Source: Paenibacillus cellulositrophicus (GTDB lineage Bacteria > Bacillota > Bacilli > Paenibacillales > Paenibacillaceae). Taken from it: 64,000 bases of DNA. Under the pieces are notes generated by a model. That model saw nothing but the letters and a program-made list of their open reading frames with translations, had not been told where the DNA came from and did no database searches. This document shows positions 42,143 through 64,000 of this stretch, in pieces. The DNA lies in NCBI RefSeq assembly GCF_009363095.1, contig NZ_CP045295.1:2971501-3035500 (forward strand), in the 5' to 3' direction. A program made the position numbers and the translations under genes. Each line of letters opens with the position of its first letter. Position 1 is the first letter of the stretch.

Positions 42143-42162
42143 AGCATGTTCTCCCCTCATTT

Positions 42163-45697: not shown

Positions 45698-45715
45698 AAA
45701 GGCATCCTCCCCTTG

Positions 45716-47269: not shown

Positions 47270-47296
47270 GGCTGCTCTTCCTTTCCGCATCTTTTT

Positions 47297-47310
47297 TGTA
47301 AACGTTTTCA
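47297..47310 (-). promoter_or_regulatory. cre site (CcpA) before the lipoprotein-YesN-YesM operon
   Basis: TGTAAACGTTTTCA (reverse TGAAAACGTTTACA) matches the cre consensus TGWAANCGNTNWCA at every position. It is 28 bases upstream of the start codon, positioned to repress when preferred sugar is present. Confidence 0.8.
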
Positions 47311-47487
47311 TAAGAGCGTCCAAATATATTGCGCGGCTCTCTCTCCGATCTACAAAGATTAATATAAACGAAGTGCTGCCAATGGACAATGGGACGATAT
47401 TAAACAATCCCGTCATATATTGGCCGATGTTTCCGCCCACGGCAAACAGCCCCACAAAGTGGAGCGAAGGCTCTCTCTTATATGTTC

Positions 47488-47534: not shown

Positions 47535-48902
47535 TTATTGCTTTAAGGTGGCTCTCACTTCCTGCGTTTTCTTATTCCATGTCTCCGTTTCCGGAATAAT
47601 GTCGTTGATATCCCGGTCGCCGAAAATAATGTCGTTCAAGATGTTGTTATAGTTGTAGTCGTTCCACCCCGGCACGGTCAGGCCGGATTGGATTTTAGCG
47701 TTCTTTTGGGCGATCTTGACGGCTTCGATATTTTTGCCCTGCCAGATCGGAGCCTGATCGTAGTAGCTCGTCAGCTCGGGATCGATGACGGAAGCATTGG
47801 CTCCTTGGTCAATTTTCCACTTCTGGGCTTCCGGCGTGAATTGGAAGCTGAGCCACAGGAATGCTTCCTCCTTATGCTTCGAACCGGACAGAAGTGCCAG
47901 CGGTCCGTAAATCGAATACCCCGGCTGGCTGACCTTGCCTTTCGGGAACGGAAGAACGTCCCAGTCGAATGTCGCTTTTTCCTTCAGGGTCGGCAGAACC
48001 CAGTCGCCGCCGATAGCAAAAGCCGTTTTTCCGTTGATGAAGTCCTTCGTCACGTTGCCGCCTTCTTCCGCGGCTGCGTTGCTCTGCATCGACCCGTCCT
48101 TCGTCACCAGCTCCTGGAACCATTTCACGTCATTCATGACATCCGGTGTGCTGAGCATGCTCTGGGTCAGGTCTTCGTTCATGTATTGATGGTTCGCCGC
48201 GTGGCCGTCGGCAATCGCTTTGGAGGACAGCAGGCGCATTTGGATTTCGGGCTGCGTCGTAATGCCGTATTCGCCGGCGCTCGGGTCGGTCACCTGCTTG
48301 GCGATGTTACGGAAGTCGTCGTAACTCCAGTCGTTTGCCGGCATATCCACGCCGTGTTTGGCCAGCAGATCCTTGTTCACCAGCACCCACATCGGGACGT
48401 CAACCATCGGTACGGCAAGCTTCTTGTTGTTGAACATCATCGTTTCGAAGAAGCCGTCGGGGAATTGGGCGTTCTTGAAAATATCGCTCTTCTCGATATA
48501 AGGCGTCAAATCTTCGATGAGATTGTTCTGCTCGAAGGTGATCAGATCGCTGTCGATCTCGGTCACGTCGGCAGGCGTGCCCGCTGCTTCCAGCGATGCG
48601 ATAATTTCCATGATCGGCTGCGAATTGGTCACCGGTACCTGCTCAATGGTGATCCAGGGGTATTTCTGATGAAACAAGTCGTACAGCTCGTCATAGGTTC
48701 CGTTTTTCCAGGAAATGAATTTGAGCGTAACCGGGTCGTGCTTTTCCTCTGCTGCCGGCTGGTTTGGCGCAGGCGTGGGTGCAGGTTCATTGCCTGTTCC
48801 GGACGGTGAAGCGCTGTCATTACTGCTGCTGCACCCGGCAAGGGTGAAGGTCATGAGCATGACCATCGATAAAATGGATGACGCGATGCGTTTTCTTTTC
48901 AA
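47535..48902 (-). CDS. Extracellular solute-binding lipoprotein (CUT1 type)
   Basis: A 455-residue lipoprotein. Signal peptide ends in MTFTLAGCSSS (Cys24); the linker is Ser/Pro/Ala-rich (about 25-55). The mature domain begins VTLKFISWKNGTYDELYDLFHQKYPWITIEQV and includes INGKTAFAIGGDWVLPTLKEKA, typical of sugar-binding proteins. Start TTG at 48902 with GGGGAGG upstream. It is the last gene of the long operon, 120 bases after the second permease pair, and is the likely ligand carrier for that pair. Confidence 0.93.
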   Translation of the reverse strand: MKRKRIASSILSMVMLMTFTLAGCSSSNDSASPSGTGNEPAPTPAPNQPAAEEKHDPVTLKFISWKNGTYDELYDLFHQKYPWITIEQVPVTNSQPIMEIIASLEAAGTPADVTEIDSDLITFEQNNLIEDLTPYIEKSDIFKNAQFPDGFFETMMFNNKKLAVPMVDVPMWVLVNKDLLAKHGVDMPANDWSYDDFRNIAKQVTDPSAGEYGITTQPEIQMRLLSSKAIADGHAANHQYMNEDLTQSMLSTPDVMNDVKWFQELVTKDGSMQSNAAAEEGGNVTKDFINGKTAFAIGGDWVLPTLKEKATFDWDVLPFPKGKVSQPGYSIYGPLALLSGSKHKEEAFLWLSFQFTPEAQKWKIDQGANASVIDPELTSYYDQAPIWQGKNIEAVKIAQKNAKIQSGLTVPGWNDYNYNNILNDIIFGDRDINDIIPETETWNKKTQEVRATLKQ

Positions 48903-49022: not shown

Positions 49023-50000
49023 TTATTCCACGATCCCCGTCCGTTCAATGCCGGTAATGAACCAGCGCTGCAGAAACATGAAGATCACGAGCGGCGGAAG
49101 GATGATCAAGAAGGCGGCACCCATTTTGGTGCCTTCGGTCACCGGATTGCTGACCAGGTCTTTGCTGCCGAGCAGCGACGGGTTCAGCACATCCTCCAGC
49201 TGGTCCAGCCGGATGGAGAGCGGCGTGAAGCCCTTGGCCAGGAACATCGAAGGCTCATAGTACATGTTCCAGTACCAGATGAACGAGAACAGAAAGACGA
49301 CCAGACAGGCCGATTGGGCAAGCGGCAGCATGATCCGGAAATACAGCCTTGCAGCGGAAGCGCCGTCCAGTTTGGCGGCCTCCTCTAGGCTGGGCGGCTG
49401 CGCCCTAAAGAACTGGCGGAAAATAAGGATAAACAGCGCCCCCTTTAGCCCCTGCCCGAAAATCGCCGGTACGAGGAAGACAAACAGCGTGTTGAGCAGG
49501 CCCAGCTTGCTGAAAATCACATACAGCGGAATAATGATCACCTGCGGCGGGATCAGAAACGTCAGCAGCACCAGCGCCGTGATCAGCCCTTTAAACGGAA
49601 CAGCCAGCCGGGCGAGCGCATAGCCGGTCATCGAGCATATCAATACCTGGACAATCGAGCAGCTCAGGGCGATGAGAGCGGTGTTCCGGAGGGCTTCCGG
49701 ATACTGCAGCCCTTTGTAGGCTTTGGTCAGATTCTCCCAGGTGACGACCCGGGGAATCCATTTAACGCTGGGATCCAGCAAATCGCTGACCGTCTTCAGC
49801 ATCGTGCTGATCATATAGAGCAGCGGCTGCAAGTACAGATAGGCCACGATGGACAGCAGCACATAAATGACCATTTTCGCCAGGAGACCGTCCGACAGAT
49901 TTCTGCCAAGCATGACCATCTTGTACTTCTGCGCCTTACGGCTCCACAAGAAGCTCGTGGCGTAATTTCTGGCCCTTTGAACCCATGGTTCCGTGTTCAT
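49023..50000 (-). CDS. CUT1 ABC permease (MalG/UgpE type), second pair
   Basis: A 325-residue permease. An N-terminal extension of about 35 residues precedes six helices. The EAA loop SLEEAAKLDGASAARLYFRIMLPL (near 208-231) is intact, and RWFITGIERTGIVE ends the protein. It overlaps the preceding permease by four bases (ATGA), so the two are coupled and form one channel. Confidence 0.92.
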   Translation of the reverse strand: MNTEPWVQRARNYATSFLWSRKAQKYKMVMLGRNLSDGLLAKMVIYVLLSIVAYLYLQPLLYMISTMLKTVSDLLDPSVKWIPRVVTWENLTKAYKGLQYPEALRNTALIALSCSIVQVLICSMTGYALARLAVPFKGLITALVLLTFLIPPQVIIIPLYVIFSKLGLLNTLFVFLVPAIFGQGLKGALFILIFRQFFRAQPPSLEEAAKLDGASAARLYFRIMLPLAQSACLVVFLFSFIWYWNMYYEPSMFLAKGFTPLSIRLDQLEDVLNPSLLGSKDLVSNPVTEGTKMGAAFLIILPPLVIFMFLQRWFITGIERTGIVE

Positions 50001-50893
50001 GGTCTTCCTCCCTTAAGCCGCATGCTGCGGCTGAATAGTCCAGTCACGAGCGCGAGCAGGACGAAAATAAAGCCGAAATAAATCCAAGCAAGCGCACTGG
50101 CGTAGCCATATCCGGTGTCGACCTTGAACATGTTGTCCTTAATGTGCTTCAGGACCGGATTCAGCGGGAAGGTGAACAGGTCGATGATGGTATAGAGCAC
50201 GTTCAGGCTGATAAACGGAACGCTGGCCGGAAGCGTAATCTTCCAGAAGCTCTCCCATGGGGAAGCGCCGTCGATGCGTACCGCTTCGTAAATTGACGGG
50301 GAAATCGTCTGGAAGCCAGCGATGAAGATCAGGATCTGCACGCCCGAGTACCAGAGGATAAGAACGACGCGCCCAAGCACTTCCATGACCGTCTTGGCCA
50401 ATTCTCCCCCGACATACTGCCGGACGACGGGCTCCAGATTGTACTGGTCCAGAAACGGTATATCGCCCGCGCCCTGCGTAAACAGTTCGGACAGCACCTG
50501 CCCCGTCGCAAAGATGACCGGGAGGAAGAACAGCGCCCTGTACACGAACCGGCCGGGGAACTGCTGGTTCAGCAGCAGGGAAATCAACAGGGCAAAGATG
50601 ACGATAATCGGCACCATCAGGATCATTTCCTGAAAGTAGGTGATCAGCTCGATCGGAAACACATTGTCCTTGAGAAAGGCATCGCGGTAATTTTGCAGAC
50701 CAAGCCACGTATATTTGAATCCCCCCGGCACCACCGCGACCTTGTGCAGGGACATGAACATGGACCAGCCGATCGGAATCGCCACAAACACGCAGAACCC
50801 GATGATCCAGGGGAGCATAAACAGCAGTCCGACGCCGTATCGCTTCAGATGATATTGGGCCGCTTTTCGTTTGAAATCCGGAACGCTGCTCAT
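49997..50893 (-). CDS. CUT1 ABC permease (MalF/UgpA type), second pair
   Basis: A 298-residue permease starting with a basic stretch and then GLLFMLPWIIGFCVFVAIPIGWSMFMSL. The EAA loop SPSIYEAVRIDGASPWESFWKITLPA (about 197-222) is conserved. It overlaps the DUF5696-type gene by four bases upstream and the partner permease by four downstream. Confidence 0.92.
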   Translation of the reverse strand: MSSVPDFKRKAAQYHLKRYGVGLLFMLPWIIGFCVFVAIPIGWSMFMSLHKVAVVPGGFKYTWLGLQNYRDAFLKDNVFPIELITYFQEMILMVPIIVIFALLISLLLNQQFPGRFVYRALFFLPVIFATGQVLSELFTQGAGDIPFLDQYNLEPVVRQYVGGELAKTVMEVLGRVVLILWYSGVQILIFIAGFQTISPSIYEAVRIDGASPWESFWKITLPASVPFISLNVLYTIIDLFTFPLNPVLKHIKDNMFKVDTGYGYASALAWIYFGFIFVLLALVTGLFSRSMRLKGGRP

Positions 50894-53112
50894 TTCCCCG
50901 CTCCTTTCTCCACGGTAAAGTCCTTGACTCCGTAATCCACGATAACCCTCGTGCCGTCCTCATAAGTGGTGGCATATTTCTGGCCGGACAGCTTTTCATG
51001 ACCGATGATCCGCATGCTATACAGCTGGCTCAGTGAATCGAACTTCGCGTATTCCTCCTCGATCCGTCGTTCCCACTTATCGAAACGGCTGCTGTACAAA
51101 AAGTTCGAGGGAGTGTCCTTCAGCTTGCGGGAATCGTCATGGGTCACAAAGAACGAGGGCAGCGCCCCATATTCGATCGCCCGCAAAAATTCGGCATCCT
51201 CATCGTCGCGAAGGTTGCCGTCTCCGAACGTGTAAGGAACGAAGCCATGCAGCACGATCGGGTAAAAGGGAACCGTCTCGTCGATCATGAAATCGTAGCT
51301 CGATTCGGACGGCAGCCCGTCAATGTAATCCGTTTGGCCGAGCGCATAAGCATCCCCCTGGTTGACCGACGCGCTTCCCAGTGCCTCCCGGGTATATTTC
51401 AGCAGCCCGTCGTAGATGGTTTTTGCATATTCCCGGGTTTGGATGCCGGAAGGCTCGTAATCGTTCAGCAGCATCTCGCCGATTCCGCTGAAATGGATGC
51501 CGTCCACGCCAAGCTTCTTCAGCCTGTCTACCGTATCTGCCGCCGTTACCGCCGTATAGGCGGGCTTGGCGATATACCAGCCGTCGTCGACATAGGCGGT
51601 CCCGTCGATCCCCCGGATGGCGTCTGTCTTTCCGGAGAAGGAGGAATGTCCGTCGACCCAGAGGAAGTCCTCGCTGAAGCTGACAGGGACGCCCCGCTCC
51701 TTCATCGCGGAAATGAACGTCTTCGCGGCCGCTTCGCCGCCAAGCGCCGGATCGATCGGAAACCGCTTCTCCATGTTGTAGTCACCTTCATTCTGCCAGC
51801 CGTAGAATATGGTGCGTAATGAAGCGACGCCCTTGCTCTGCAAGGTACTGACGATATCGCCCGCCTGCTCGAAGGTCGTGGCGGCCACATACCGGATTCG
51901 GCCAAAGGCCTTTTCGTAATTGCCGCCCATGATTTTCAGGTATAGCGGCACATGATCCACCGGTTTCAGCGCCTCGGTAAGACGGCCGGTCTCCTGCAGA
52001 TAGCTCCGGTAAGCTCCCGCCATACCGACATAATCCGCGTCCGCGCCGTTCAGGAACCGGTATTCGACCTCCCGGTCCCGGTTCAGCCGTTCCTTCTGAA
52101 CGGCCTTGCTCGGCGCGGCCAGCCGGCTCATCCGGTAGAGATATTCTTCGCGATAGATTTGACTGGAAAATACCTGATAGAATGACGACTTGAGTCCGGG
52201 CGCCATGGCGGATACGTTGGCGGAATCTTCCCCCTTGGTCATGACGGCCAGAAAGGCATGGTCGCCCTTCTTCAACCCGAACACAGGGTAAGCGATGTCT
52301 TCCCTCCGTTCTCCGGTACGCGTCCCATTCTCCTCATTGGTCACCTCGCTGCCGTAAACCTGATGCGAGTAGCCTCGGGTAAGGCTCGCATGCTCCTGAG
52401 CGAAGCGGATGAGTCCTCCAGGGCCGTCGGGAACGAACACATAACCATTCTCTTTAGCGGGTGCGGCTCCAAAATAAGGCAGAACGTCGAGCGAGAACAG
52501 CGCAGACGCTCCTTCCTCCCGAATGCCGGCCGCAGGCACCTTGACCTTGAGGCCGCTGTCCGTCAGCTCATACTGCATGACAAACCCCAACTGTTTGGCG
52601 GGAAACGAGTATTCGATTTGCAGCCCCTCAGGCTTGCGGATCATGGCGATTTGCATGCCGGCCGTCTGGTTGCTCAGCGTCTCCCTGACCGTCTGATCGG
52701 CTCCCTGCGTCCGGACATGGGTCAGCAGAAAAGGGGATTGCAGGTTGGCCAGCAGCTGTCCTTTGACCGTTTCACCGGCCAGCTCCTCCTTGATCGGATT
52801 GCTGGTCCAGCGGTAGCCGGATGCCTTATCCAGCACGGCGATCTGGGTGTTATCCGGGCGGACGTACAGCGCATAATGTTCGTTCTCCAGCACCAGCGCA
52901 TAACCGTCAGCCCCTGCGGCCGGTTTCCAGAGATCGCCCTCATACAGGGCGTCCGGAGTTGGAAGGTTCGCGGCGATGCCCGTTTGGGAGAATCGTTCGG
53001 CTGTCGTTTGCTCCCAAGGCTTGAACACCAGCAGCAGAAGCACGATCAGAAGAGCCAGTGCGATGGCGGCAGGCCATTTTGCTTGGCGGAATCGTCGTTT
53101 GGCAGCGTTAAT
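50890..53112 (-). CDS. DUF5696-type membrane-anchored protein with TIM-barrel-like domain
   Basis: About 740 residues. The frame contains no ATG, GTG or TTG before a GTG at 53043, which falls inside the membrane helix. Upstream in frame are the basic residues AAKRRFRQAKW that belong before a signal anchor, and an ATT codon at 53112 ten bases after GAGGTG. I therefore place the start at ATT (or the preceding ATC). After the anchor, a beta-rich domain (about 65-370, with YVFVPDGPGGLIRFAQ) leads into a TIM-barrel-like domain (about 385-700; MGGNYEKAFGRIRYVAATTFEQ, GVDGIHFSGIGEMLL, SSYDFMIDETVPFYPIVLHG). The fold suggests a glycoside hydrolase, but no activity is established. I recall homologues in Paenibacillus sugar clusters as DUF5696. 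Confidence 0.78.
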   Translation of the reverse strand: MNAAKRRFRQAKWPAAIALALLIVLLLLVFKPWEQTTAERFSQTGIAANLPTPDALYEGDLWKPAAGADGYALVLENEHYALYVRPDNTQIAVLDKASGYRWTSNPIKEELAGETVKGQLLANLQSPFLLTHVRTQGADQTVRETLSNQTAGMQIAMIRKPEGLQIEYSFPAKQLGFVMQYELTDSGLKVKVPAAGIREEGASALFSLDVLPYFGAAPAKENGYVFVPDGPGGLIRFAQEHASLTRGYSHQVYGSEVTNEENGTRTGERREDIAYPVFGLKKGDHAFLAVMTKGEDSANVSAMAPGLKSSFYQVFSSQIYREEYLYRMSRLAAPSKAVQKERLNRDREVEYRFLNGADADYVGMAGAYRSYLQETGRLTEALKPVDHVPLYLKIMGGNYEKAFGRIRYVAATTFEQAGDIVSTLQSKGVASLRTIFYGWQNEGDYNMEKRFPIDPALGGEAAAKTFISAMKERGVPVSFSEDFLWVDGHSSFSGKTDAIRGIDGTAYVDDGWYIAKPAYTAVTAADTVDRLKKLGVDGIHFSGIGEMLLNDYEPSGIQTREYAKTIYDGLLKYTREALGSASVNQGDAYALGQTDYIDGLPSESSYDFMIDETVPFYPIVLHGFVPYTFGDGNLRDDEDAEFLRAIEYGALPSFFVTHDDSRKLKDTPSNFLYSSRFDKWERRIEEEYAKFDSLSQLYSMRIIGHEKLSGQKYATTYEDGTRVIVDYGVKDFTVEKGAGK

Positions 53113-55123
53113 GATAGATGTTCACCTCTTTGTAAAGCTCATAGAAAAAGTCATACAGGTTATAGGACAATCCGAAAATAATGAAGCCGAACATCCAGAT
53201 CGTCAGAATTGCAAACACCGAGATAGCCGAGTTTTTCAGCGTCTCCAGGAAATCGAAGTTGTGGATCACCTGCGTCATCACGATGAACATGACGAGCAGC
53301 CATACGGTCATGATCGTGTTCAATGCATGAATGATGACCGCCTCATCCAGCGATGCGATGTTGGACAGCAGGATCGTCGGGACCGAAAAGAACACATAGG
53401 GCGACAGCGCATAGACGCTGCCCTGAATGACTTCCCGGAACCGGCCCTCCCCGTCCTTGATGCTGCAGACCAGGTAGTTGGCGATGATCCAGGTGACCCA
53501 TGGCAGGGCAAACAGGCCGAGTTCCTTCATCAGATTGACTTCCGAGAGGTCGACAGGATGGAACAAAAACCCGGTGAGATAAACTCTGCACAGCTTGATG
53601 CCGATGACCAGGAGCAGCAGGGAAATCGTGATCCAGGCGGGAATCCTCGCCTCCTTGATTTTGTAGAACCCCTCGTAAGGATGAATCAGGACGTAGCCCA
53701 AATTACGGATGTACGCCAGCGGTTCCTTCCAGGATACCGGCAGCGGACGCCTGCGCAAGGACCAGCGGATGAGGCGATAGCCGAAGTAAACGGCAAGCAT
53801 CACTGCGGCCAGTCCGCCCACCAGGGCGACAAAATGGCGCTGAAGCCATTCCATCCGGATCTGCCAAAAGGCCTTCGAATAGCCGTCGGTATCGAAAGCG
53901 GCTTTCATGTAGCTCAAGGCTTCGTCATTGCGGTCCTCGTGCAAAAACACTTTGCCCAAGCCTTGAAAGGTCCCGTTGTACATATCATTGCGGGCATAGA
54001 CCGCCTCCCAATAAGGCTTGCTCTCTTCGTATTTCCCGTCGGCATACAGTGCGAGCGCCTGAAGCGCGCTGCTGCCGAAAGCGGTACGGACGTATTTATG
54101 GACCGTATTGGTACCGCTGTCGGATATCCAGATCGCATGATCCGAGTCGATGCCGATCCCGGTCGGATAACCGAGCACGCCGTACTGCTGCGTTTCCTTA
54201 TCGATGTCGCCGAACTCGAACATGGCCTCACCGCTGCGGTCATAAAGATTGATGCTCATGGAATCGAGGTCGATATTGTACAGGAAGCCTTCCGGATCAA
54301 CGGCAACGTCGACGATGCCGTGTCCGTTCACCAGCGTCTTGTTTTTAAAAGCGTCCACCCCGCCTGCATTCAGCTTGCGGATCGCTCCCTTCCCTTCCCC
54401 GCCGGCGGTGGCCGTGTACACAAATCCGTCCGGATCGATCGCCACATTCGTAATCGGCTTGGGGAGCGCGCCCTTTTCCTTGGACAGCTGCTCCTTGTTC
54501 AGCACCAGCTTCTTCAGCCAGTTCAGCATCGACTGATCCGCCTTGTTCGCACCGAAATAGCCCATGAATTCGCCTTTCGGATTCAGCCGGACCAGTCCCT
54601 GATACGAGGAATTCAGCTGGATGTACATCACGCCGCGCCGGTCTACGACAAGCTTGACAGGGACAAAATGCTCCGAGCCGAGCAGCGGTGTCTCTGGCTT
54701 CTTGTACTCCCTCTGAAACCGTCCACTCCCGTCAAACACGGCAATCCGCTGATTTCCAGAGTCCGCCACGTATACCTCGTTGTCCGGAGTAACGTATACG
54801 CCCTCCGGTCCAGAGAGCTGACCTTGGCCTTCGGCGTCGCCGAACGTCCGGAGCAGCGTGCCGTCCGGATTCAGCACCGCAATGCGGTCTTTCTTTTTGT
54901 CGGCGATATAGACACGGTCGTCGGCGGCGATATCGAGATCAGCCGGTTCACCGAAATCGGCGGAGATGGCCCCGGCCGGACGGTATATCGGCTGGATGCG
55001 GAACCAGGACGCCTGGTTCGAGTCATAGTAGGATGTCATATATGGAGGTTTGGCCATGGCGGTACCCGGCAGGGACGTCAAGACGGCCATAAAGACTAGC
55101 AGTAATGGAAACCATTTTTTCAT
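53108..55123 (-). CDS. NHL beta-propeller fused to a YIP1-like membrane domain
   Basis: A 671-residue protein. Signal peptide MKKWFPLLLVFMAVLTSLPGTAMA. An NHL-type propeller follows (about 40-330) with repeated blades such as LDIAADDRVYIADKKKDRIAVLNPDGTLLRTFG and VYVTPDNEVYVADSGNQRIAVFDGSG. A TPR-like stretch (about 335-400) precedes one membrane span near 415-435 and a YIP1-like bundle of about five helices (about 465-670). So a secreted propeller is tethered to a polytopic membrane domain. The ATG at 55123 has AAAGGAAG; an ATG at 55150 overlaps the preceding stop but lacks a site. Position between two permease pairs suggests a role in substrate capture or transporter assembly. The function is unknown. 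Confidence 0.82.
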   Translation of the reverse strand: MKKWFPLLLVFMAVLTSLPGTAMAKPPYMTSYYDSNQASWFRIQPIYRPAGAISADFGEPADLDIAADDRVYIADKKKDRIAVLNPDGTLLRTFGDAEGQGQLSGPEGVYVTPDNEVYVADSGNQRIAVFDGSGRFQREYKKPETPLLGSEHFVPVKLVVDRRGVMYIQLNSSYQGLVRLNPKGEFMGYFGANKADQSMLNWLKKLVLNKEQLSKEKGALPKPITNVAIDPDGFVYTATAGGEGKGAIRKLNAGGVDAFKNKTLVNGHGIVDVAVDPEGFLYNIDLDSMSINLYDRSGEAMFEFGDIDKETQQYGVLGYPTGIGIDSDHAIWISDSGTNTVHKYVRTAFGSSALQALALYADGKYEESKPYWEAVYARNDMYNGTFQGLGKVFLHEDRNDEALSYMKAAFDTDGYSKAFWQIRMEWLQRHFVALVGGLAAVMLAVYFGYRLIRWSLRRRPLPVSWKEPLAYIRNLGYVLIHPYEGFYKIKEARIPAWITISLLLLVIGIKLCRVYLTGFLFHPVDLSEVNLMKELGLFALPWVTWIIANYLVCSIKDGEGRFREVIQGSVYALSPYVFFSVPTILLSNIASLDEAVIIHALNTIMTVWLLVMFIVMTQVIHNFDFLETLKNSAISVFAILTIWMFGFIIFGLSYNLYDFFYELYKEVNIYH

Positions 55124-55149
55124 CGTTCCGACTTCCTTTGCTGATGACA

Positions 55150-56016
55150 TTACTTGATACCGGAATGGACCATCGTCTCAAGCACTCTGCGCTGAAAGAG
55201 CAGGAAAATGATCAGATTCGGGATGAAAATAAGCAGCCCGGCCGCCGCCGCCATGTTCTGCCCCGCCACGTTGTTCTGCAAACCGCTCAGCAGGCTGTTG
55301 ACGTAGAAAGCGAGCGTCCGCATCGTCTCCTTTTGCATGAACAGGGTTGAAGTCTCCACGTCTCCCCATACGCCCTGGAACGTCAAAATCGAGATAGTCG
55401 CGATCGCCGGGACGGACAGAGGCAGAATCATGCGCACGAAGATGCCGACATGCCCCGCGCCGTCGATCCGGGCCGCCTCCATCAGATCGCTCGGAATTTG
55501 CGAGATGAAGCCGACGAGCATAAACACCGCGACGGGCGATGCAAGCGCCGGCAGGATATGCCCGAGATACGTATTGTTCAGCCCGATGCCGTTGATGACG
55601 AGATATCTCGGAATGGATACCGTTTCGGGCGCGAACATCAAGGACAGGGTAATCAGCGACATGATGAGCTGTTTGAAATGGAATTGGTATTTGGCCAGAA
55701 CATAAGCCGCCATCGTACTGACCACCACGACGCTGACCAGTGTCAGCGAAACGACAATTAGGCTGTTGAACAAATACCGTGTGAACGGCACCGTCGCATT
55801 GGACGCATGCAGAAAGAGCGTTTCGAAATTGTGCAGGGTCGGATGCCGGACGAAAAACCGCGGCGGAAATAGGAACAGCTCGTTTTGCGGCTTAAACGCA
55901 TGGTTGAAGATGAAGACGATCGGCAGCGACATGAACAAGGCCAAGGCGGTAAAAAGCGTGATCAGAATGACCTGAAAGGGCGAAGCCGTGCGGAGCCGGC
56001 GCAATTTGGGCATCAT
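55150..56016 (-). CDS. CUT1 ABC permease (MalG type), first pair
   Basis: A 288-residue permease with six helices. The EAA loop SDLMEAARIDGAGHVGIFVRMILPLS (about 178-203) is intact, and the C-terminus RRVLETMVHSGIK is typical. The tandem ATG at 56016 follows GGAGG, located inside the 3' end of the preceding permease gene. It forms a channel with the gene at 56021-56992. Confidence 0.92.
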   Translation of the reverse strand: MMPKLRRLRTASPFQVILITLFTALALFMSLPIVFIFNHAFKPQNELFLFPPRFFVRHPTLHNFETLFLHASNATVPFTRYLFNSLIVVSLTLVSVVVVSTMAAYVLAKYQFHFKQLIMSLITLSLMFAPETVSIPRYLVINGIGLNNTYLGHILPALASPVAVFMLVGFISQIPSDLMEAARIDGAGHVGIFVRMILPLSVPAIATISILTFQGVWGDVETSTLFMQKETMRTLAFYVNSLLSGLQNNVAGQNMAAAAGLLIFIPNLIIFLLFQRRVLETMVHSGIK

Positions 56017-56020
56017 GGGC

Positions 56021-56992
56021 TTACAGTTCCTCCTTCGAGTTAAACATCCGGTAGGCAAACCTCATCACGAAGTAACTGAGGAGCAGCAAAATAACTGAAA
56101 CCGCTGAAGCATAGCCGAGTTCGAACCGGATGAACGCGTAATCGTCGACATGGTTGATGATGAGGTGCCCCGCGTACTGCGGCGTAATCGCCATCCCGGT
56201 CAACTGGGTTGAAATGCTGCCGGCCTTCAGGGTCGAAACGATCGTCATGACGGCGCTGAACAGCATTTGCGGTTTCATGGACGGCACGGTAATGTAGAAC
56301 ACTTCCTGCAGCCGGTTCGATATCCCGTCGATCCGTCCAGCTTCATACAGCTCCCGGTTGACCGTCTGCAGACCCGCCAGCATCGCCAGAAATCCTACGC
56401 TGAAGCTCATCCAGAGGGATACCAGAATCATGATGTTCAGCAGGTACTTCGGATCCTGCAGCCAAGTTACCGGGGAATCGATCCAGCCCATATTCAGCAG
56501 GAAGTTGTTCAAATAGCCGACGCGGTCGCCGCTGAAAGCGGCAATCCAGACGACCGTCAGCGCCACGCCGCCCGCCATCGACGGCGCATAGAACACCAGC
56601 GTGTAATAATCGCGCACCTTCATCGGCAGCTGATGAATGAGCCAGGCAAACAGGAAAGACAGCATATACCCGCCCGGTCCGACGATCAGCGCGAATACGA
56701 ACGTGTTCGGAAGCGCCTTGGTCAGAAAAATAATGTCCTGCGTAAACAGCGCGATAAAGTTGTCAAAGCCGATAAAATGCAGCTTGCTGAATCCGTCGTA
56801 GGACGTGAAGCTGAGCGTCGCAGCCATCACGACCGGAATGACGATAAAGACGAGAAAGCAGATGAGAAAAGGAGCCAGGAACGCGTAGCAGAACGCATCC
56901 TTCTTCAAATCCAGTACAAACCGTTTCAGCTTGACCGCTACCGGGGATGGCGGCTTCGCGGCGGGCAAAGCGGGCGTAACTTCTGGTTTCAC
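56021..56992 (-). CDS. CUT1 ABC permease (MalF type), first pair
   Basis: A 323-residue permease with a proline/alanine-rich N-terminal extension and six helices beginning near AFCYAFLAPFLICFLVFIVIPVV. The EAA loop NRELYEAGRIDGISNRLQEVFYITVP (about 214-239) keeps the core G.IDG but reads EAGRIDG instead of EAA.IDG, as in many MalF-type subunits. GTG start at 56992 overlaps the stop of the fused binding protein (GTGA). Confidence 0.92.
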   Translation of the reverse strand: MKPEVTPALPAAKPPSPVAVKLKRFVLDLKKDAFCYAFLAPFLICFLVFIVIPVVMAATLSFTSYDGFSKLHFIGFDNFIALFTQDIIFLTKALPNTFVFALIVGPGGYMLSFLFAWLIHQLPMKVRDYYTLVFYAPSMAGGVALTVVWIAAFSGDRVGYLNNFLLNMGWIDSPVTWLQDPKYLLNIMILVSLWMSFSVGFLAMLAGLQTVNRELYEAGRIDGISNRLQEVFYITVPSMKPQMLFSAVMTIVSTLKAGSISTQLTGMAITPQYAGHLIINHVDDYAFIRFELGYASAVSVILLLLSYFVMRFAYRMFNSKEEL

Positions 56993-59943
56993 GGCTTAGC
57001 CTCCTCCCAGTTAAAAGGTTCGGTAATCTGCGGCACGCGCAAGTTTCCTCCCGCAATGCCGAAATTCCGCTGCCTGCGGTCCATCTCCCGCTGCAGCGAC
57101 AGGCTGGCCTCTTCCAGCGATTCGCTCGCCGGCACGCCGTCAAATACCGTCTTGTTCCAGGCGAAATCCATTTCACGGGCCAGGAAGTAGTATCCTGGAA
57201 CATTGGGCAGGTTCGCCGCCCAGCGAGCCTGTTCCCGGATCGCTTTCAGGTCTTCGGACGGCCAGCTCAGCGACTTCATCGCCTCGACATTGGCCGTATT
57301 CCAGCGGTACTCGATGCCGTAGTACGACTCCATATCCCCGGCATACCTCGACTGGACATCCGCGGAAGTCCACCATTTCAGAAACTGCCAGGCCGCATCC
57401 TTCTTGTCGCTCTTCTTCATGATCATGGCCGTGGACAGTCCTTGCGGCGACCAGCGGGCCACTTGACCGTCCGGCTGCTTGATCCCCGGCAGGGGCGCAA
57501 CTTTCCAGTGCCCCGTGATCTCAGGCGCAGCCACCTGCAGCTGCACGTACGTGTTGAAGTCGGATATGCCGATCGGGATATCCCCGTCACGGAAATGCTG
57601 GAAGAATGCCGGTATGTCGATCGGCAGGTTGAATTTGGTGTACAGCTGCGTCCACTGCTTGAATGCCTTTTGCCCCGATTCGCTGAACAGGCTGGACTTC
57701 AGCCCGTCGGGCGTATACGGCGATGCGCCGTTTTCGAGAAAGAGGGTGGCGAAATCCGCCTTCGGAACATTCATCGTCATGCCGTTCTCCTGCAGCGTCG
57801 GCAGGATGTCAAACACGTCGTCCCAAGTGTCCGGGGCCTTCAACCCCAGGCTCTCGAAAATATCCGAGCGGTAAAACAGCAGCTGGAAGTTCTGCACCTC
57901 CGGCAGGCCGTAAGTGCCGCCGTTGTAAGTCAGGGCCCTCGTTGCGCCCGGTATGAAGCGTTTCATGACATCGGCGAATCCCGGATAGGAGGACAGGTCC
58001 TGAACGGCGTCCCGCATCGCATAATCAGCCGGTGTGGCCTCTGCCAGCCCAAGCGCCACGTCGGGCACGTCGCCGGCGGCATTGCCCAGAATCAGCATGT
58101 TGGGATTCGGCATAAGATTAATGTTGACCTGAATCCCCGTTTTCGGCGTGAAATCCTGGCTCACCAGCTCCCGCAGCTCATCAACGTAATCGCGGCCGCG
58201 GCCGACCCAGATCTCCAGCGCCCCGTCCTTCTTCTCCCCGTCCAGGTCGTAATCCATCGTAAAGGAACGGGCGAAGTCTGCGATGGAATACGGAATCCGG
58301 GAGAGCGCCGTTGGCTCTTTGAGGCCGGTTCGGGCATCCGGCGTCCGTACCACGAAATAATCGAGCATCAGCGGCTGCTGGGTCAGCGTGGACATCCAGG
58401 TGCCGATGTTGGCCTGGATCGTGGAGAAGTCATTCACCTTGTTCGGAACGTTGTTGACGTCGGCCGTCATCTCTTCCAGCATGCTCACCGCTGAAGCAAT
58501 CGCTTGCGACAGGTCGGAGCTGCCTTCATTGACGCGGTTAATGTAGTCCCGGATCAGCTTCAGGCGGTCGATCAAGGATTGAAGCGTTTTGCCCGCATTG
58601 GGATCGTATTTATTCATGTCCCAGGTACGGCTGGCATCCAGGTTGGCATCCGAGGCGCTTTTGCTGTAATTGCCGGTGATGAGCCGGATATGGCGGTCGA
58701 AATCCGAAATTTGCGCCAGGGTATCCTTCAGTGCGATCAGAATCGGCTGCATCGTGCTTGAATCGGCCGTCATTCGCATCGTGTGGGTCCCTTTGTTCAG
58801 GTAAAACTGATAGGGCCTGCCTTCCGCATCCGATATCGCCGAGATTTCAAATTCCTTGTGATACGCCAGACCGTAATGAAGCAGCTCCTCGAACGGGACT
58901 TTTCCGTCGATTTCGATCGTCCGATACGCTTTGAATCCTGATCTGTAGTTTTGGAAGTTTTTCAGATCGATGACGTACCAGCCGTCGGCCGGAACCTCAA
59001 AGCTCCACTCCACCCACTCGCCCGGCTGCTTCCAACGGTTCCCTCCGAGCACGTTATAGGTGATGCGGCCCTTGGGATCCGGTGAAATGTACGGCTCCGA
59101 CCAGCGGTCCGTCTGAATGGACAGGCTCGACTTGCGCTGGAACTGCTCGGCTTCCGTCTGCTTGAACCAGCTCTCTTGGTCCTTCATGGCGGGCTGCTGC
59201 TTGACGTATTCCGCATAGGCCGCGATCGGCTGCTGGGTCCGGAAATAGATGTCCCGGATCGCGACCGCCCCCCTCTCTCCGGTCAACCGGAGCGTGTGCT
59301 GCCCGGGCTCAAGCCGGTACAGAAACGGCCGGGAAGAAGCCGAATAATCGCTTGCCGCCTTGTCCGTCCATTCGGGGAGTTCAATCTGCTGGGGACGGAC
59401 CTGCATCCCGATTTCGTTGACTTCGTATGGATACTTCGCGTCCTTCCACATCCGTTCCAGCTCGATGCGCTCTGATTCCGCGAAGGGGTATTGTCCGTCG
59501 ATCATGGCCCCGCGGATCACGGAGCTTCCGCTGCCCGGCAGCGCCTTATAGTCCAAATGGAGCTCATACCAGCCAGCCTCGGGGACCGTAAAGGTCCATT
59601 CCACCCAGCCGGATTCGTTGCTCCAGCTCAGCATGCTTCGACCGCTCTCGGCCTCCTTGGCCAGGTCCGCATCGGTGGATGCCGCCTTGTAATTGACCGG
59701 ATCGAGCCGAATGGACCTCTCTTCCGCAGCGGCATATTCACCTTCCGGCCCCTTCATGAGCTGGGCGTAAGGGAGCTCGCCTTCCTTGCTTGCCAGATCA
59801 AGCAGGTCGGCGGCGGTGACGCTGGTGGAGTAAATCACAGGCTCATCGGCTGAGAGCCAGCGGACAAGTCCGAACAGAAGTGCGGCAATGATCAGCAGTC
59901 TCAGGGAAATGCGCGCGAAGCGGGGCAAGGTGCGTTTCTTCAT
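56989..59943 (-). CDS. Membrane-anchored fusion: two carbohydrate-binding-like modules plus ABC solute-binding domain
   Basis: A 984-residue protein. The N-terminus is a signal anchor (SLRLLIIAALLFGLVRWL) without lipobox cysteine. Two similar beta-sandwich modules follow: about 85-235 (SGWVEWTFTVPEAGWYELHLDY, GQHTLRLTGERGAVAIRDIYF) and about 280-410 (GEWVEWSFEVPADGWYVIDLKN, GTHTMRMTADSSTMQPILIAL). A helical linker comes next (about 430-550), then a family 1 solute-binding domain (about 595-960; LEIWVGRGRDYVDELRELVSQDF, NGGTYGLPEVQNFQLLFYRSDIFESLGLKAPDTW). Binding protein and polymer-binding modules are thus one chain, roughly twice the usual length of a binding protein. Overlaps the ATPase gene (four bases) and the first permease. 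Confidence 0.88.
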   Translation of the reverse strand: MKKRTLPRFARISLRLLIIAALLFGLVRWLSADEPVIYSTSVTAADLLDLASKEGELPYAQLMKGPEGEYAAAEERSIRLDPVNYKAASTDADLAKEAESGRSMLSWSNESGWVEWTFTVPEAGWYELHLDYKALPGSGSSVIRGAMIDGQYPFAESERIELERMWKDAKYPYEVNEIGMQVRPQQIELPEWTDKAASDYSASSRPFLYRLEPGQHTLRLTGERGAVAIRDIYFRTQQPIAAYAEYVKQQPAMKDQESWFKQTEAEQFQRKSSLSIQTDRWSEPYISPDPKGRITYNVLGGNRWKQPGEWVEWSFEVPADGWYVIDLKNFQNYRSGFKAYRTIEIDGKVPFEELLHYGLAYHKEFEISAISDAEGRPYQFYLNKGTHTMRMTADSSTMQPILIALKDTLAQISDFDRHIRLITGNYSKSASDANLDASRTWDMNKYDPNAGKTLQSLIDRLKLIRDYINRVNEGSSDLSQAIASAVSMLEEMTADVNNVPNKVNDFSTIQANIGTWMSTLTQQPLMLDYFVVRTPDARTGLKEPTALSRIPYSIADFARSFTMDYDLDGEKKDGALEIWVGRGRDYVDELRELVSQDFTPKTGIQVNINLMPNPNMLILGNAAGDVPDVALGLAEATPADYAMRDAVQDLSSYPGFADVMKRFIPGATRALTYNGGTYGLPEVQNFQLLFYRSDIFESLGLKAPDTWDDVFDILPTLQENGMTMNVPKADFATLFLENGASPYTPDGLKSSLFSESGQKAFKQWTQLYTKFNLPIDIPAFFQHFRDGDIPIGISDFNTYVQLQVAAPEITGHWKVAPLPGIKQPDGQVARWSPQGLSTAMIMKKSDKKDAAWQFLKWWTSADVQSRYAGDMESYYGIEYRWNTANVEAMKSLSWPSEDLKAIREQARWAANLPNVPGYYFLAREMDFAWNKTVFDGVPASESLEEASLSLQREMDRRQRNFGIAGGNLRVPQITEPFNWEEAKP

Positions 59944-61058
59944 GCCTCACCTCTCCCCACCAATTCCTCCGTACTCTCATCGAAAAAGTGGATTTTGTGC
60001 ATCTGCAAGCCTACAGAGACCACGTCCCCGGCGGCGTACGTCTGTTCAGGATCGGTACGGGCGATCAATGGATAGGAGCCGATTTGCACGTAAACATAGG
60101 AATCCGCGCCGGTGGCTTCCGTCATTTGCACAAGCCCGGTGATGAAGCCGGCTTCCTCCGTGCTGCCGCGCTTCAGGATGACGTGTTCCGGCCGCACGCC
60201 TAAGATGACGCTGCGAACGGTTTTCGGGGCCCGCTCAAAATTTCTGCCAGTGGCCTCAGGCAGGAGCAGCCTCATCCGTTTGTTGGAAAAATAGTAGTCT
60301 CCGTCGCTTTTCTCGATGGTACCGTTCAAAAAGTTCATCTGAGGCGAACCGATGAATCCGGCGACAAACACATTGGCCGGTTCGTCGTACAATGCGCGCG
60401 GGGCGGCTACCTGCTGAATGACCCCGTCCTTCATCACCACGATGCGGGTGCCCATCGTCATCGCCTCGACCTGGTCGTGGGTGACATACACCGTCGTCCG
60501 TTTCAGGTCGCTCTGCAGCTTGATCAGCTCGGCCCGGGTCTGCGCGCGCAGCTTGGCATCGAGATTGGACAGCGGTTCGTCCATCAGAAACACCTGAGGC
60601 TCACGGGCGATCGCCCTGCCGAGCGCGACCCGCTGCTTCTGGCCGCCGGACAGCTGACTCGGCTTGCGGTCCAGCAGATGGGCGATTTCCAGGATGGACG
60701 CCACCCGCTTCACGCGCACATCGATTTCATGCTTCGCCGTCTTGCGGAGCTTTAGGCCAAGGGCGATATTTTCATAAACGGACAGATTGGGATACAGGGC
60801 ATAATTCTGAAAAACCATCGCGATATCGCGGTCCTTCGGGGAGACATAATTGATGAATCTGCCGTCCAAATACAGCTCGCCGCTGCTGATCTCCTCAAGC
60901 CCCGCAAGCATGCGCAGCGTCGTCGATTTGCCGCAGCCGGAAGGTCCGACCAGAACAAGAAATTCCCCTTCTTCAATGGACAAATGGAAGTCGTTCACGG
61001 CGGGGCGGGATTCGCCCTTGTACCGTTTGAATACATGATTAAATGTGATGCTTCCCAC
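59940..61058 (-). CDS. MsmX/UgpC-type ABC ATPase of the large cluster
   Basis: A 372-residue ATPase. Walker A GPSGCGKST, signature LSGGQKQRVALGRA, Walker B VFLMDEPLSNLDAKLRAQ, and YVTHDQVEAMTMG are all intact; a TOBE domain occupies the last 120 residues. The GTG at 61058 is preferred because GAGGTGAG lies eight bases before it; GTG 61067 overlaps this site. It is the first gene of the operon and its stop overlaps the fused binding protein. It is the only ATPase for two permease pairs in the cluster. Confidence 0.93.
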   Translation of the reverse strand: MGSITFNHVFKRYKGESRPAVNDFHLSIEEGEFLVLVGPSGCGKSTTLRMLAGLEEISSGELYLDGRFINYVSPKDRDIAMVFQNYALYPNLSVYENIALGLKLRKTAKHEIDVRVKRVASILEIAHLLDRKPSQLSGGQKQRVALGRAIAREPQVFLMDEPLSNLDAKLRAQTRAELIKLQSDLKRTTVYVTHDQVEAMTMGTRIVVMKDGVIQQVAAPRALYDEPANVFVAGFIGSPQMNFLNGTIEKSDGDYYFSNKRMRLLLPEATGRNFERAPKTVRSVILGVRPEHVILKRGSTEEAGFITGLVQMTEATGADSYVYVQIGSYPLIARTDPEQTYAAGDVVSVGLQMHKIHFFDESTEELVGRGEA

Positions 61059-61234
61059 CGTTCTCACCTCACGCTATCTAACTGCCGTTTCTACTTCAAT
61101 GGTAGCGCATTCATAACAGGGCCAAAATGAGGCGGAATTAATGTTTGCAGTCCATTTTTAACGTGTCCTGCGTTTAGAGTGCGGCTGGCCCCGAAATTGC
61201 TGGATGCGGGAATCGCCACGATCACCCCAGACGC

Positions 61235-61312: not shown

Positions 61313-64000
61313 TTATACAAGCGGTACACCAGAACCGGAATTCCCTCCTCCATTCGATCCCGGTCCTCCCGGATGTCCCTCTCCGCCCGGAACTGTCCCA
61401 AGCTTCGAACCAATGGCAGCGAGCCGGGCCTGCAAGGATTTCTTCAGTCCGCTATCCGGCAGGAGAAGCACGAAATTGGCAGCAGCATCGACGGTGCTGA
61501 CCTCTTTCTTTTGCATGGCCAACTTCACGCTGGCTTGGGCGGATTTCTCCAGCAGCTTCACATAGTCGTTCTGGAGGAGGTACAAATTGCCGAATAATCC
61601 GGCATCCTTGCTCGCGCCGATACCTCCGTTAAACTCCATGAATCCGGAACGGCCGTCCCCGTCATTTTCGTTGACGAGCAGCGCAAGCCCTATCGGTTTA
61701 TCGGGATGGAAGTTGTACCCGGCGCCGTGAAGCGCCTGAAACGGAAGGGTCAGCTCATAATGCGTCACCTTGGCCGCTTCGTCGCGGGTAACGACCGCCT
61801 GAACGGATTCCAGCGGACCCGGTGTGACCCCATCCGGAGCACGCCATCTCCATTTCTGCACGCTGCCGTCCTCGTTCAGCGCAAACCCGAGCTCATTCAC
61901 CTGGCGGCTGGCCGCGCCATCTTCCTTCGCCAGGTCGATACCGACCTGCAGGCTGTCGCCCTGCCATATATCGCCGTTGGTAAACGTCTGGCTGTGGACA
62001 TTGTCCTTGACATCTACGTTAACGTACAAGTGGGCTTCATCCCAGGTGACCTTGGAGGTGAGCCCGAGATCATCGGCGCCCCCCCAGCTTCCGCCAACGC
62101 TGTAGTAATGCTCCGGACCAGACACTTCAATGGTTGGCGTGTGGTCCGCTGCCCCGCTCCGCGATGCGAAGGACTGGGACAGCTTGACTGAAGTTTCATA
62201 ACGTTCCCCGTTATCCAGCGCAACCCTGAACTTCAGGGAATCGGCTGATAAGTAAGGGATGGCCACACTGCGGGTTTCCCCCTGCTTCAGCTCCTCAAAA
62301 CGGATCGACTTCAGCGCCTCCTGGTACATGCCGGGACTGACCCATTCGATTTGTCCCTTCAGCGTTCCAGCTCCGGCCGCATTGGTTATCGACAGCACCG
62401 TTCCTGTATTTTCCGGGTGTGAAGGATCGAAGGGTGCCTTCTCTAACTTCAGCGTCACAGGATAGAGATTGCTTCCCGACACTTTGCCCGGCGCATCGTT
62501 CTGAATTAGAAGTCCCCCGCTGGCCAGGTTGTTGGATACGACCATCTTGTCGATGCTCGGCCCGGCATACACATGGGTCGTTTGGGACTGCTGGAAATAG
62601 GAATCGTACAGTCCGATGTTACCGCCGACGGCGTTAATGCCGATGTCGCCGACTTTGGTGAAGTTGGCCTGCTGAATCCGCACGGTGCCCCCGAAGATAT
62701 CGAAGGAACGGTTTGTATCGCCCCACATCGAAGAATTGAAAAACACCGCTTTGGAGCCGAAGTCTTTGCCGACCTCAACGTAGACTTTGTCGGTCGTGCT
62801 GATCGAGACCAGCTCCGTGTTGATGAACTGGAGTCCCGCCTTGTCCGCGCCTTCCAGCACGGCTCCTTTTTTGCTTCCGTCCGTGCCGTGGCCGATCACG
62901 ACGGCTTCAGGGCCCTGCCCGTCCTGTCCTTCGAAATGGATGCCGAACTTCGAACCGAAGACGAATGTGTTAAAAATGGTCTCCTGTTTCACGTTGCCGA
63001 TGCGGAAAGCATCCAGATGGTCCTTCTGGTAACTCCAGACCATGTCGGAGTCCGCGCCGGTGGATGGATGGTTCGGGTAATTGCTGCGCCCGTAATAATG
63101 CGGATTGAACTGGACGTTCCGCAAGTATCCGCCCTGCGCACCTCCGCCCAGGTAAATCCCTTCCTTCAGCGGGGAACCTGCCACGTAATCGATGTAATGC
63201 CCGCTCGTATCGTATGTTCCAAAATCGACGGCCTGGTATGGATTGACCAGCGTCGTATCAATAAGGTAAACGTCCTTCCCTTGGCCTTGAACGGTCCATG
63301 GGTAAGGCTTGACCGGATTCGCTTCGGTCCAGGTTTGATGGTCGTAATATACGGATATCCCGCGGAGGCCCGCCAACGCTTTTAACTGGATCAACGCCGG
63401 GGCGTCCGCTTCATTTTCCCCGTAGTTCGTAAAAATGACCGTGCCGCCGCCAATCGTATGATGCGGAACATCAAAGTTGCCGCGCAATTCTACGCCTGTC
63501 GGTACAACCAGCGGCTGCTCGACCCGGTAAATCCCGGCCGGCATATACACCGTGCCGCCGCCAGCGTCACCGGCATCGCTTAGAGCCTGCTGGATCGCCT
63601 GGGAGGCATCCTCATTCCCGGTCGGATCAGCGGAGTACGGAGCATTCACCACATTAAACAATCTGCTCGTCGCCGGCTTGGGACGTGCGGCGATATCCAC
63701 GGAGGGCACCTCAGGAAGGCGGTCCAGGACATACTTGTCGTCTTGGCGGATATTCAGGTCCGTCGACTGGCTGTGATTGGTTACGGACAGCTTGCCGTCA
63801 TATCCCGAGTTGATGGAATTTACCGTTCCGACATTCCCTTCAAGCAGGAGATGGCGATCGGATTTGGCGAAGCTGGAAGCCCCCAGTATCAGCGATCCGC
63901 CTCGTGCGATGATCGCATAGTCTTCGCTGCCGTCCCCCCAGTTTTCGAATGAGCTGTTTTCGAAGGATAAGGTGCCGCTGCCCTCGTTCAGAACCGCCTG
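61313..64000 (-). CDS. Secreted pectate-lyase-superfamily beta-helix protein with CBM9-like domain (5' end outside window)
   Basis: The frame is open from the stop at 61313 to the window edge (895 residues visible), so the start and any signal peptide lie outside. A parallel beta-helix of the pectate lyase 3/GH55-like type begins near 63650 (RLFNVVNAPYSADPTGNEDASQAIQQAL, GGTVYMPAGIYRVEQPLVVPTGVELRGNF) and runs to about 62500. Beta-helix-like strands also occur before it. Then follows a CBM9-like sugar-binding domain (about 62150-61570; VTWDEAHLYVNVDVKDN, IWQGDSLQVGIDLAKEDG) and a Gly-rich tail. It is upstream of the ABC operon on the same strand and probably breaks down the polymer whose fragments that transporter imports. 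The catalytic type cannot be named from sequence alone. Confidence 0.82.
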   Translation of the reverse strand, partial: QAVLNEGSGTLSFENSSFENWGDGSEDYAIIARGGSLILGASSFAKSDRHLLLEGNVGTVNSINSGYDGKLSVTNHSQSTDLNIRQDDKYVLDRLPEVPSVDIAARPKPATSRLFNVVNAPYSADPTGNEDASQAIQQALSDAGDAGGGTVYMPAGIYRVEQPLVVPTGVELRGNFDVPHHTIGGGTVIFTNYGENEADAPALIQLKALAGLRGISVYYDHQTWTEANPVKPYPWTVQGQGKDVYLIDTTLVNPYQAVDFGTYDTSGHYIDYVAGSPLKEGIYLGGGAQGGYLRNVQFNPHYYGRSNYPNHPSTGADSDMVWSYQKDHLDAFRIGNVKQETIFNTFVFGSKFGIHFEGQDGQGPEAVVIGHGTDGSKKGAVLEGADKAGLQFINTELVSISTTDKVYVEVGKDFGSKAVFFNSSMWGDTNRSFDIFGGTVRIQQANFTKVGDIGINAVGGNIGLYDSYFQQSQTTHVYAGPSIDKMVVSNNLASGGLLIQNDAPGKVSGSNLYPVTLKLEKAPFDPSHPENTGTVLSITNAAGAGTLKGQIEWVSPGMYQEALKSIRFEELKQGETRSVAIPYLSADSLKFRVALDNGERYETSVKLSQSFASRSGAADHTPTIEVSGPEHYYSVGGSWGGADDLGLTSKVTWDEAHLYVNVDVKDNVHSQTFTNGDIWQGDSLQVGIDLAKEDGAASRQVNELGFALNEDGSVQKWRWRAPDGVTPGPLESVQAVVTRDEAAKVTHYELTLPFQALHGAGYNFHPDKPIGLALLVNENDGDGRSGFMEFNGGIGASKDAGLFGNLYLLQNDYVKLLEKSAQASVKLAMQKKEVSTVDAAANFVLLLPDSGLKKSLQARLAAIGSKLGTVPGGEGHPGGPGSNGGGNSGSGVPLV

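Follow-up and report, generated by a model that had tools for sequence, protein, structure and literature searches.

In Gram-positive bacteria, oligosaccharides are thought to be released by enzymes, either free or anchored, and then captured by loose lipoproteins, solute-binding proteins in which a lipobox cysteine follows the signal segment. The closest described importers are the CUT1-type ATP-binding cassette (ABC) systems UgpABCE and MalEFGK. Here we describe a gene block in a stretch of 64,000 nucleotides from Paenibacillus cellulositrophicus (the window; NZ_CP045295.1, positions 2,971,501 to 3,035,500) that, like these systems, joins an ATPase scoring above the UgpC cut-off to both kinds of permease with EAA motifs, and that includes a 984-residue binding protein without a lipobox. 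We read this large protein as the probable sugar-binding component of a bacterial import pump, in which two carbohydrate-module-like folds make up a stalk that bears the binding part. Its gene is one open frame with an ATG start on the minus strand of the window (59943..56989). An earlier note, made from the letters of the window alone, had the coordinates and the length right; the strand is corrected here to minus, and a plus-strand reading was rejected because frame 1 contains several stops and the domains are encoded on the minus strand. An NCBIfam scan of the protein and its two paralogues in the same genome gave no name above cut-off.

The gene lies in a tight minus-strand run, most genes of which overlap or touch their neighbour. 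Directly upstream is an ABC ATPase gene of UgpC/MalK type (59940..61067; NCBIfam NF008653, 452.3 bits against a cut-off of 432). Downstream, on the same strand, follow permease A (UgpA-like, 56021..56992), permease B (UgpE-like, 55150..56058), an NHL β-propeller joined to a Yip1 membrane domain (53108..55150; PF01436, E 9.7e-20, and PF04893, E 7.2e-9), a GH129-like DUF5696 protein (50890..53043; PF18952, 576 bits, and profile matches), permease C (49997..50893), permease D (49023..50000) and a second solute-binding protein of 455 residues with the lipobox LAGC (47535..48902; Pfam), which lies outside the core kept in distant loci. Permeases A, B and D were assigned by Pfam and NCBIfam, and permease C scored 25.8 bits for BPD_transp_1, just below the Pfam cut-off of 26.4. 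All four permeases carry the EAA motif, with A and C, and B and D, forming paralogue pairs. Judged by sequence, EAA-motif permeases together with a UgpC/MsmX-type ATPase place the block among CUT1 ABC importers, and with its adjoining permeases, ATPase and GH129-like protein the binding protein is assigned to an importer of sugar type. Scans of the region found 3 promoter sites where 6.5 were expected and 17 terminators where 13.6 were expected, and neither count was informative.

The strongest result of our analysis is that the binding protein is one part of a near-obligate gene set. A contig scan yielded 25 named orthologue loci, in records named Paenibacillus, Cohnella and 'Bacillus' sp., all full-length and 64–97% identical to the window protein; their frames measure 980–1002 residues in 24 of the 25 and 1424 in the remaining one (L014). 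All nine genes were present in 25/25 of these loci, with the ATPase gene directly upstream of the binding protein in every one. Gene order here was derived from the positions at which the frames start; in L014 long overlapping frames obscure it, and in L006 permease D is split over two frames. We also compared 20 loci hand-picked for diversity (window genome 2, family 8, class 1, phylum 9). A seven-gene core of binding protein, permeases A–D, NHL/Yip1 and DUF5696 was found in all 20, and in 18 of them it runs binding protein, permease A, permease B, NHL/Yip1, DUF5696, permease C, permease D; in L070 and L071 the binding protein and permeases A and B stand at the end of the block. The NHL and Yip1 parts form one gene in 14 of the 20 loci and two genes in 6, and a strong ATPase match (>500 bits) adjoins the core in 8, with the second binding protein also varying. 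The core occurs as well on plasmids of Butyrivibrio fibrisolvens, with NHL and Yip1 as two genes, and of Paenibacillus cellulosilyticus, where the NCBI name of the binding protein is 'extracellular solute-binding protein' only. At one locus (L074, 9859-12718) permease B is broken into two parts separated by about 1.6 kb, possibly because a mobile element inserted there.

The same association held when whole genomes were searched. The stalk half of the protein matched in 128 of 197 same-family genomes, the window genome included, with up to at least seven copies per genome; among the matches listed, most frames span about 970–1090 residues. The two paralogues in the window genome are 37% and 34% identical to the protein. 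With 25 full-length orthologues and 128/197 family genomes, we rejected the possibility of a rare fusion or an assembly artefact. DUF5696 was found in 129 of the 197 family genomes, namely all 128 with the binding protein and one more (G143, a weak match at 3.7e-13). Copy numbers of the two were equal in 117 of the 128. At most seven stalk and six DUF5696 candidates were scored per genome, and a seven-to-six difference in eight genomes may be an effect of these scoring limits; three genomes (G005, G115 and G189) hold one DUF5696 more than binding protein. Among 398 genomes of the phylum, 44 matched the stalk, 38 of them in a frame of at least 952 residues and six (G203, G249, G287, G320, G350 and G566) only in frames of 194–561 residues. 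DUF5696 occurs in 37 genomes of this sample and is common to 36 of the 38 with the binding protein; the exceptions G298, G347 and G297 are assemblies of 90–160 contigs, so gaps are possible. A DUF5696 search in 14 control genomes gave no match.

We examined the fold of the stalk with two AlphaFold models, one of the full-length protein and one of residues 31–574, each built from 26 sequences (the window protein and the 25 orthologues). The full-length model had a mean predicted local distance difference test (pLDDT) score of 57, with a good stalk and a poor binding domain; the shorter model had a mean of 76, with ten-residue blocks above 90 in both sandwiches. Module 1 (residues 76–236, 59236..59718, minus strand) is a CBM6/35-like β-sandwich with a conserved extra loop. 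VIA-align placed the 31–574 model on the CBM6 structure 2cdp (Z 14.5, 1.9 Å over 119 residues), followed by many CBM6 and CBM35 chains, nearly all rows covering module 1 only. In the full-length model, module 2 aligned to the CBM35 structures 4qb1 and 4qb2 (Z 13.1, 1.9 Å over 113–114 residues) from residue 259/260 to 535. Because this alignment skips residues 396–521, the last strand is approximately QPLMLDYFVV (523–532) and the helical bundle is an insertion, lying between the penultimate and last strands. Module 2 is thus made up, on the minus strand, of a main CBM35-like part (residues 259–393, 58765..59169, with EAE at 264–266), the inserted bundle (396–521, 58381..58758) and a last strand (526–535, 58339..58368) that holds D528. 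The conservation pattern agrees with this: among 44 diverse members, the sample used for all conservation counts here, D528 is kept in 44, and columns at least 80% conserved number 5 of 13 in residues 523–535 and 13 of 127 in the helices.

The two modules are homologous to each other (hhalign probability 99.7%, E 3.8e-27), and the pattern that the earlier note had quoted as shared by them is present, module 2 reading GEWVEWSFEVPADGWYVIDL and module 1 SGWVEWTFTVPEAGWYELHL. In profile searches, module 1 matched CBM35 chains at E about 4e-4, and module 2 matched a module of 5x7g at E 1.1e-8; we take 5x7g to be a cycloisomaltooligosaccharide glucanotransferase and its module to be of the CBM35 family. 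Both modules have the carbohydrate-binding-module fold first proposed for them: that proposal had been staked on the N-terminal part being a β-sandwich, and AlphaFold with VIA-align returned a CBM6/CBM35-like sandwich twice. The helices had been read as a linker from the modules to the binding domain, a placement that the full-length model contradicts, with residues 396–521 lying inside module 2. Domains of insecticidal Cry proteins also matched module 1 (Z 11.6–12.1), so a CBM-like fold is by itself no proof of sugar binding.

The C-terminal part is a solute-binding domain (about residues 575–965, 57049..58221, minus strand; Pfam and the PDB entry Lin1841). PF01547 (SBP_bac_1) matched residues 589–864 with 88 bits against a cut-off of 26, covering profile positions 9–306 of 307, in agreement with the complete domain claimed before. 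Its best PDB sequence match is Lin1841 of Listeria innocua (5ysb; E 1.2e-18, residues 575–936), presumably a 1,2-β-oligoglucan-binding protein. The likeness is distant, the 397-residue PDB chain has no stalk modules, and the substrate need not be common to the two.

At the other end of the protein, residues 9–27 form a hydrophobic segment (59863..59919, minus strand; hydropathy 2.17), and neither a lipobox nor any cysteine was found in the N-terminus, just as the earlier note had described it. Across 79 family rows, some of which are genes fetched twice, a hydrophobic N-terminal segment was present in 78 and a loosely defined lipobox-like motif was absent in 74. The five rows with the pattern comprise two in which it lies upstream of the start codon, one in which it lies in mid-segment and two that are one protein counted twice. 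A second hydrophobic stretch beyond position 100 occurs in 17 of the 79. In several distant members the segment ends, judged by eye, in an A-x-A-like site, so a cleaved signal is possible for those members.

The constant partner DUF5696 is, by profile, a remote relative of GH129 glycosidases and a probable glycosidase. A search with the single DUF5696 sequence reached only E 0.24; a profile of 21 members matched 8rzg (E 2.5e-11), the 3,6-anhydro-D-galactosidase 5opq (E 2.8e-11) and the α-N-acetylgalactosaminidase 5wzn (E 1.6e-10), the best stretches being positions 314–467 (5opq) and 314–479 (5wzn) of 727. We take 5opq and 5wzn to be GH129 enzymes, to which DUF5696 is akin by profile, and their catalytic residues presumably lie beyond the end of the alignment; DUF5696 has a Pfam family of its own. 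No paper naming DUF5696 was found in the literature searched. Upstream of the listed GTG its frame stays open for another 69 bases, which encode a hydrophobic segment without a lipobox, so the protein is probably membrane-tethered too. Between 53043 and 53112 on the minus strand there is no ATG, GTG or TTG that would take in this segment; the frame starts at 53112 with ATT and shares bases with the end of the NHL/Yip1 gene. A 707-residue plus-strand frame (52976-55099), antisense to the NHL/Yip1 gene and the DUF5696 start, is probably a by-product of base composition.

Stalks also occur without a binding domain. Stand-alone double-module proteins were found at L081 9437-10588, L083 9381-10532, L085 8928-10088 and L086 9632-10801; the L081 copy begins with a hydrophobic segment, and a DUF5696 search of the genomes concerned gave no match. 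These frames, of 384–390 residues, belong to one distant family (f14), and close to them stand genes resembling permeases A and B as well as two ATPase genes. A 561-residue frame (L082 8627-10309) has both modules and the bundle and stops close to the expected beginning of the binding domain; its last strand reads LNLD, with an Asn where other members lack one. It lies between ROK and pseudouridine synthase genes, and a further stalk-only protein (L084 9128-10495) lies between ROK and MatE genes; no ABC genes were found on either stretch. Such proteins indicate that the stalk is a unit by itself. This is in keeping with a role as scaffold or anchor and makes it less likely that the stalk exists solely to supply the binding lobe.

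Taken as a whole, we consider it fairly probable that the protein is the docking subunit of a CUT1-type sugar ABC importer within a conserved surface machine for capture, cutting and import. The N-terminal segment would keep the protein at the membrane, with the binding domain borne by a rigid stalk that combines two CBM35-like sandwiches with the helical bundle. DUF5696, as a putative membrane-tethered, GH129-like glycosidase of the same operon, would trim surface glycans and release small ones; the binding domain would catch the product, presumably a sugar, and dock on permeases A and B, perhaps also on C and D, and the UgpC-type ATPase would power its inward passage. The stalk would position the binding domain and may contact NHL/Yip1, DUF5696 or the permeases. 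A bolder version, which would make the block a type of Bacillota transport machine not described before and in which the DUF5696 glycosidase, a propeller/Yip1 scaffold and two permease pairs are joined by the stalk into one surface complex that cuts, catches and imports in a single assembly, is speculative and, on present evidence, rather doubtful.

Several observations weigh against this picture of an importer subunit. The binding domain has pLDDT values mostly below 50 in the full-length model, probably because the alignment is shallow. Two permease pairs face one core binding protein, and the picture does not account for the second pair or for NHL/Yip1. Non-carbohydrate genes, namely GerA, a WYL regulator and three without a family, are found among the neighbours, and the stalk-only genomes show that the stalk is not always part of this importer. 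Finally, the N-terminal segment could be a cleaved signal peptide instead of an anchor.

Whether the stalk grips sugar was judged from the sites of known modules. According to PMC9843283, CBM6/35 sugar sites comprise five regions; conservation is strongest in region A, as a rule a Trp, and in region C, where an Asn at the base of the site is invariant. Among six CBM6 modules encoded by neighbouring genes, four have an Asn-x-x-aromatic motif in the last strand (for example FNLLWF and FNVNWF), the other two reading FNVNKF. From this motif and the structural range we infer that the region C position is residue 526 in module 2 and 228 in module 1; the assignment rests on these because hidden Markov model alignments end before the last strand and hhalign gave no significant match between the stalk modules and those six modules (probability about 1%). 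A profile search of module 2 with the insertion removed still left the last strand unaligned. At the assigned positions, an Asn was found in 0 of 44 members for both modules. Pfam gave no CBM family match for the window modules at E 0.1; across the 44 members at E ≤ 0.1, CBM_35 matched in nine for each module and CBM_6 in three for module 1 and one for module 2, with a best E-value of 9.7e-6. At module 2 position 365, the candidate region A position, which aligns to a Trp of 5x7g, the residue is aromatic in 38/44 (F 21, W 15, Y 2), and the extra loop of module 1 keeps W166 in 39 and R183, Q186 and W192 in 40 each. The EAE/Asp pair, which we take to be the structural calcium site of CBM35 and CBM6, may be represented in module 2 (E266 43/44, together with D528), and no such pair was found in module 1 at the places checked, 78–83 and 230. 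Columns conserved to at least 80% number 25 of 169 and 32 of 144 in the two modules and 113 of 391 in the binding domain. With the fold present and no classical site by the region C test, a new site or contact with protein must explain this conservation.

In the proposal of the earlier note, a polysaccharide chain may be gripped by the modules and released oligomers gathered by the binding lobe, which would make the modules true carbohydrate-binding modules. We regard this as unlikely, if worth keeping in mind. Both modules have the CBM6/35 fold, the region A aromatic of module 2 is largely retained, and a new site could be formed by W166, R183, Q186 and W192 of the module 1 loop and Q331 and R341 of module 2; there is also a precedent in BT0996-C, which, according to PMC9843283, binds polygalacturonan without the usual CBM signatures. 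Yet the net charges of the modules in the window protein are −8 and −3, as opposed to the basic BT0996-C, and the same residues are conserved although the neighbouring enzymes vary between loci. With the region C Asn absent from both modules and no Pfam CBM match in the window modules, polysaccharide holding is unproven, and the CBM-like stalk is more probably a scaffold than a classical carbohydrate binder.

Two further explanations would take the block out of sugar uptake altogether. In one, the protein is a sensor whose binding domain signals bound sugar through the stalk to NHL/Yip1 or to a nearby two-component system; its constant partner is indeed a propeller/Yip1 membrane protein, and kinase and response regulator genes lie near the block both here and in Butyrivibrio. 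We consider it improbable, however, given permease genes adjoining in 25/25 and 20/20 loci, the EAA motifs of the window permeases and an ATPase gene immediately upstream in all 25 orthologue loci. In the other, the block makes or exports a surface glycan. To our knowledge importers do not commonly include Yip1 or NHL parts, and the stalk-like proteins of L082 and L084 lie away from ABC genes, one of them beside a MatE gene. Permeases and ATPase are nevertheless of importer type, a solute-binding domain is present, and a scan of 30 proteins from the window and from neighbouring genes turned up no glycosyltransferase or flippase family; we consider the making or export of a glycan highly improbable. 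The docking subunit of a CUT1-type sugar importer thus stays our preferred reading.

Beyond the constant block, upstream neighbours vary between loci and include GH43, CBM6 proteins, RHGA/CBM9, GH38, enolase with epimerase, GH3 and ThuA/GSDH. Many of them are carbohydrate enzymes or related proteins (GH43, GH38, GH3, CBM6 proteins and RHGA/CBM9). An RHGA-like neighbour was seen in 3 of the 25 orthologue loci, with less than 4 kb of upstream sequence available in five of the 25. A substrate assignment from neighbours was tried and dropped, with none named, the upstream genes differing between loci. In the window, positions 61313-64000, continuing to L080 1817-6226, hold a 1470-residue frame with rhamnogalacturonase/pectate-lyase-like and CBM9-like domains, upstream of which lie an epimerase, an enolase-type enzyme and a GH38. 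After the operon come, on the minus strand, genes for a DUF3502 binding protein, an AraC-type response regulator and a Cache histidine kinase (42250-47455), and beyond the kinase region a GH43 gene (40823-42160).

Each of the domains described here, and the CUT1 importer itself, is already known, and the protein is common in its lineage under a generic annotation. Among the papers listed in literature searches, none dealt with a stalked, non-lipoprotein binding subunit or with the seven-gene set. Judged from those listings, this subunit, with its helical bundle inserted in a CBM35-like sandwich, and its gene set constitute a new variant among sugar ABC importers. That a stalked binding protein, a likely glycosidase and two permease pairs keep together so constantly suggests machinery more closely integrated than free enzymes and loose lipoproteins. 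The block is present in about two thirds of the sampled same-family genomes and in a rumen Butyrivibrio; through it DUF5696, the NHL/Yip1 protein and the stalk acquire a shared setting and roles that can be tested, with implications for plant glycan uptake by soil and gut bacteria.

Compared with known systems, the stalk modules have the same fold as the CBM35 and CBM6 modules 4qb1, 2w47, 2vzp, 2cdp and 5x7g; unlike those, they are fused to a solute-binding protein, a helical bundle interrupts module 2 and the region C Asn is lost. The transport genes correspond to UgpABCE and MalEFGK, from which the block differs in its two permease pairs, its stalked non-lipoprotein binding subunit and its constant NHL/Yip1 and DUF5696 proteins. 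If the parts do form a single complex, it would be a Gram-positive answer to SusCD-type glycan capture, with a CBM fold turned into a structural scaffold.

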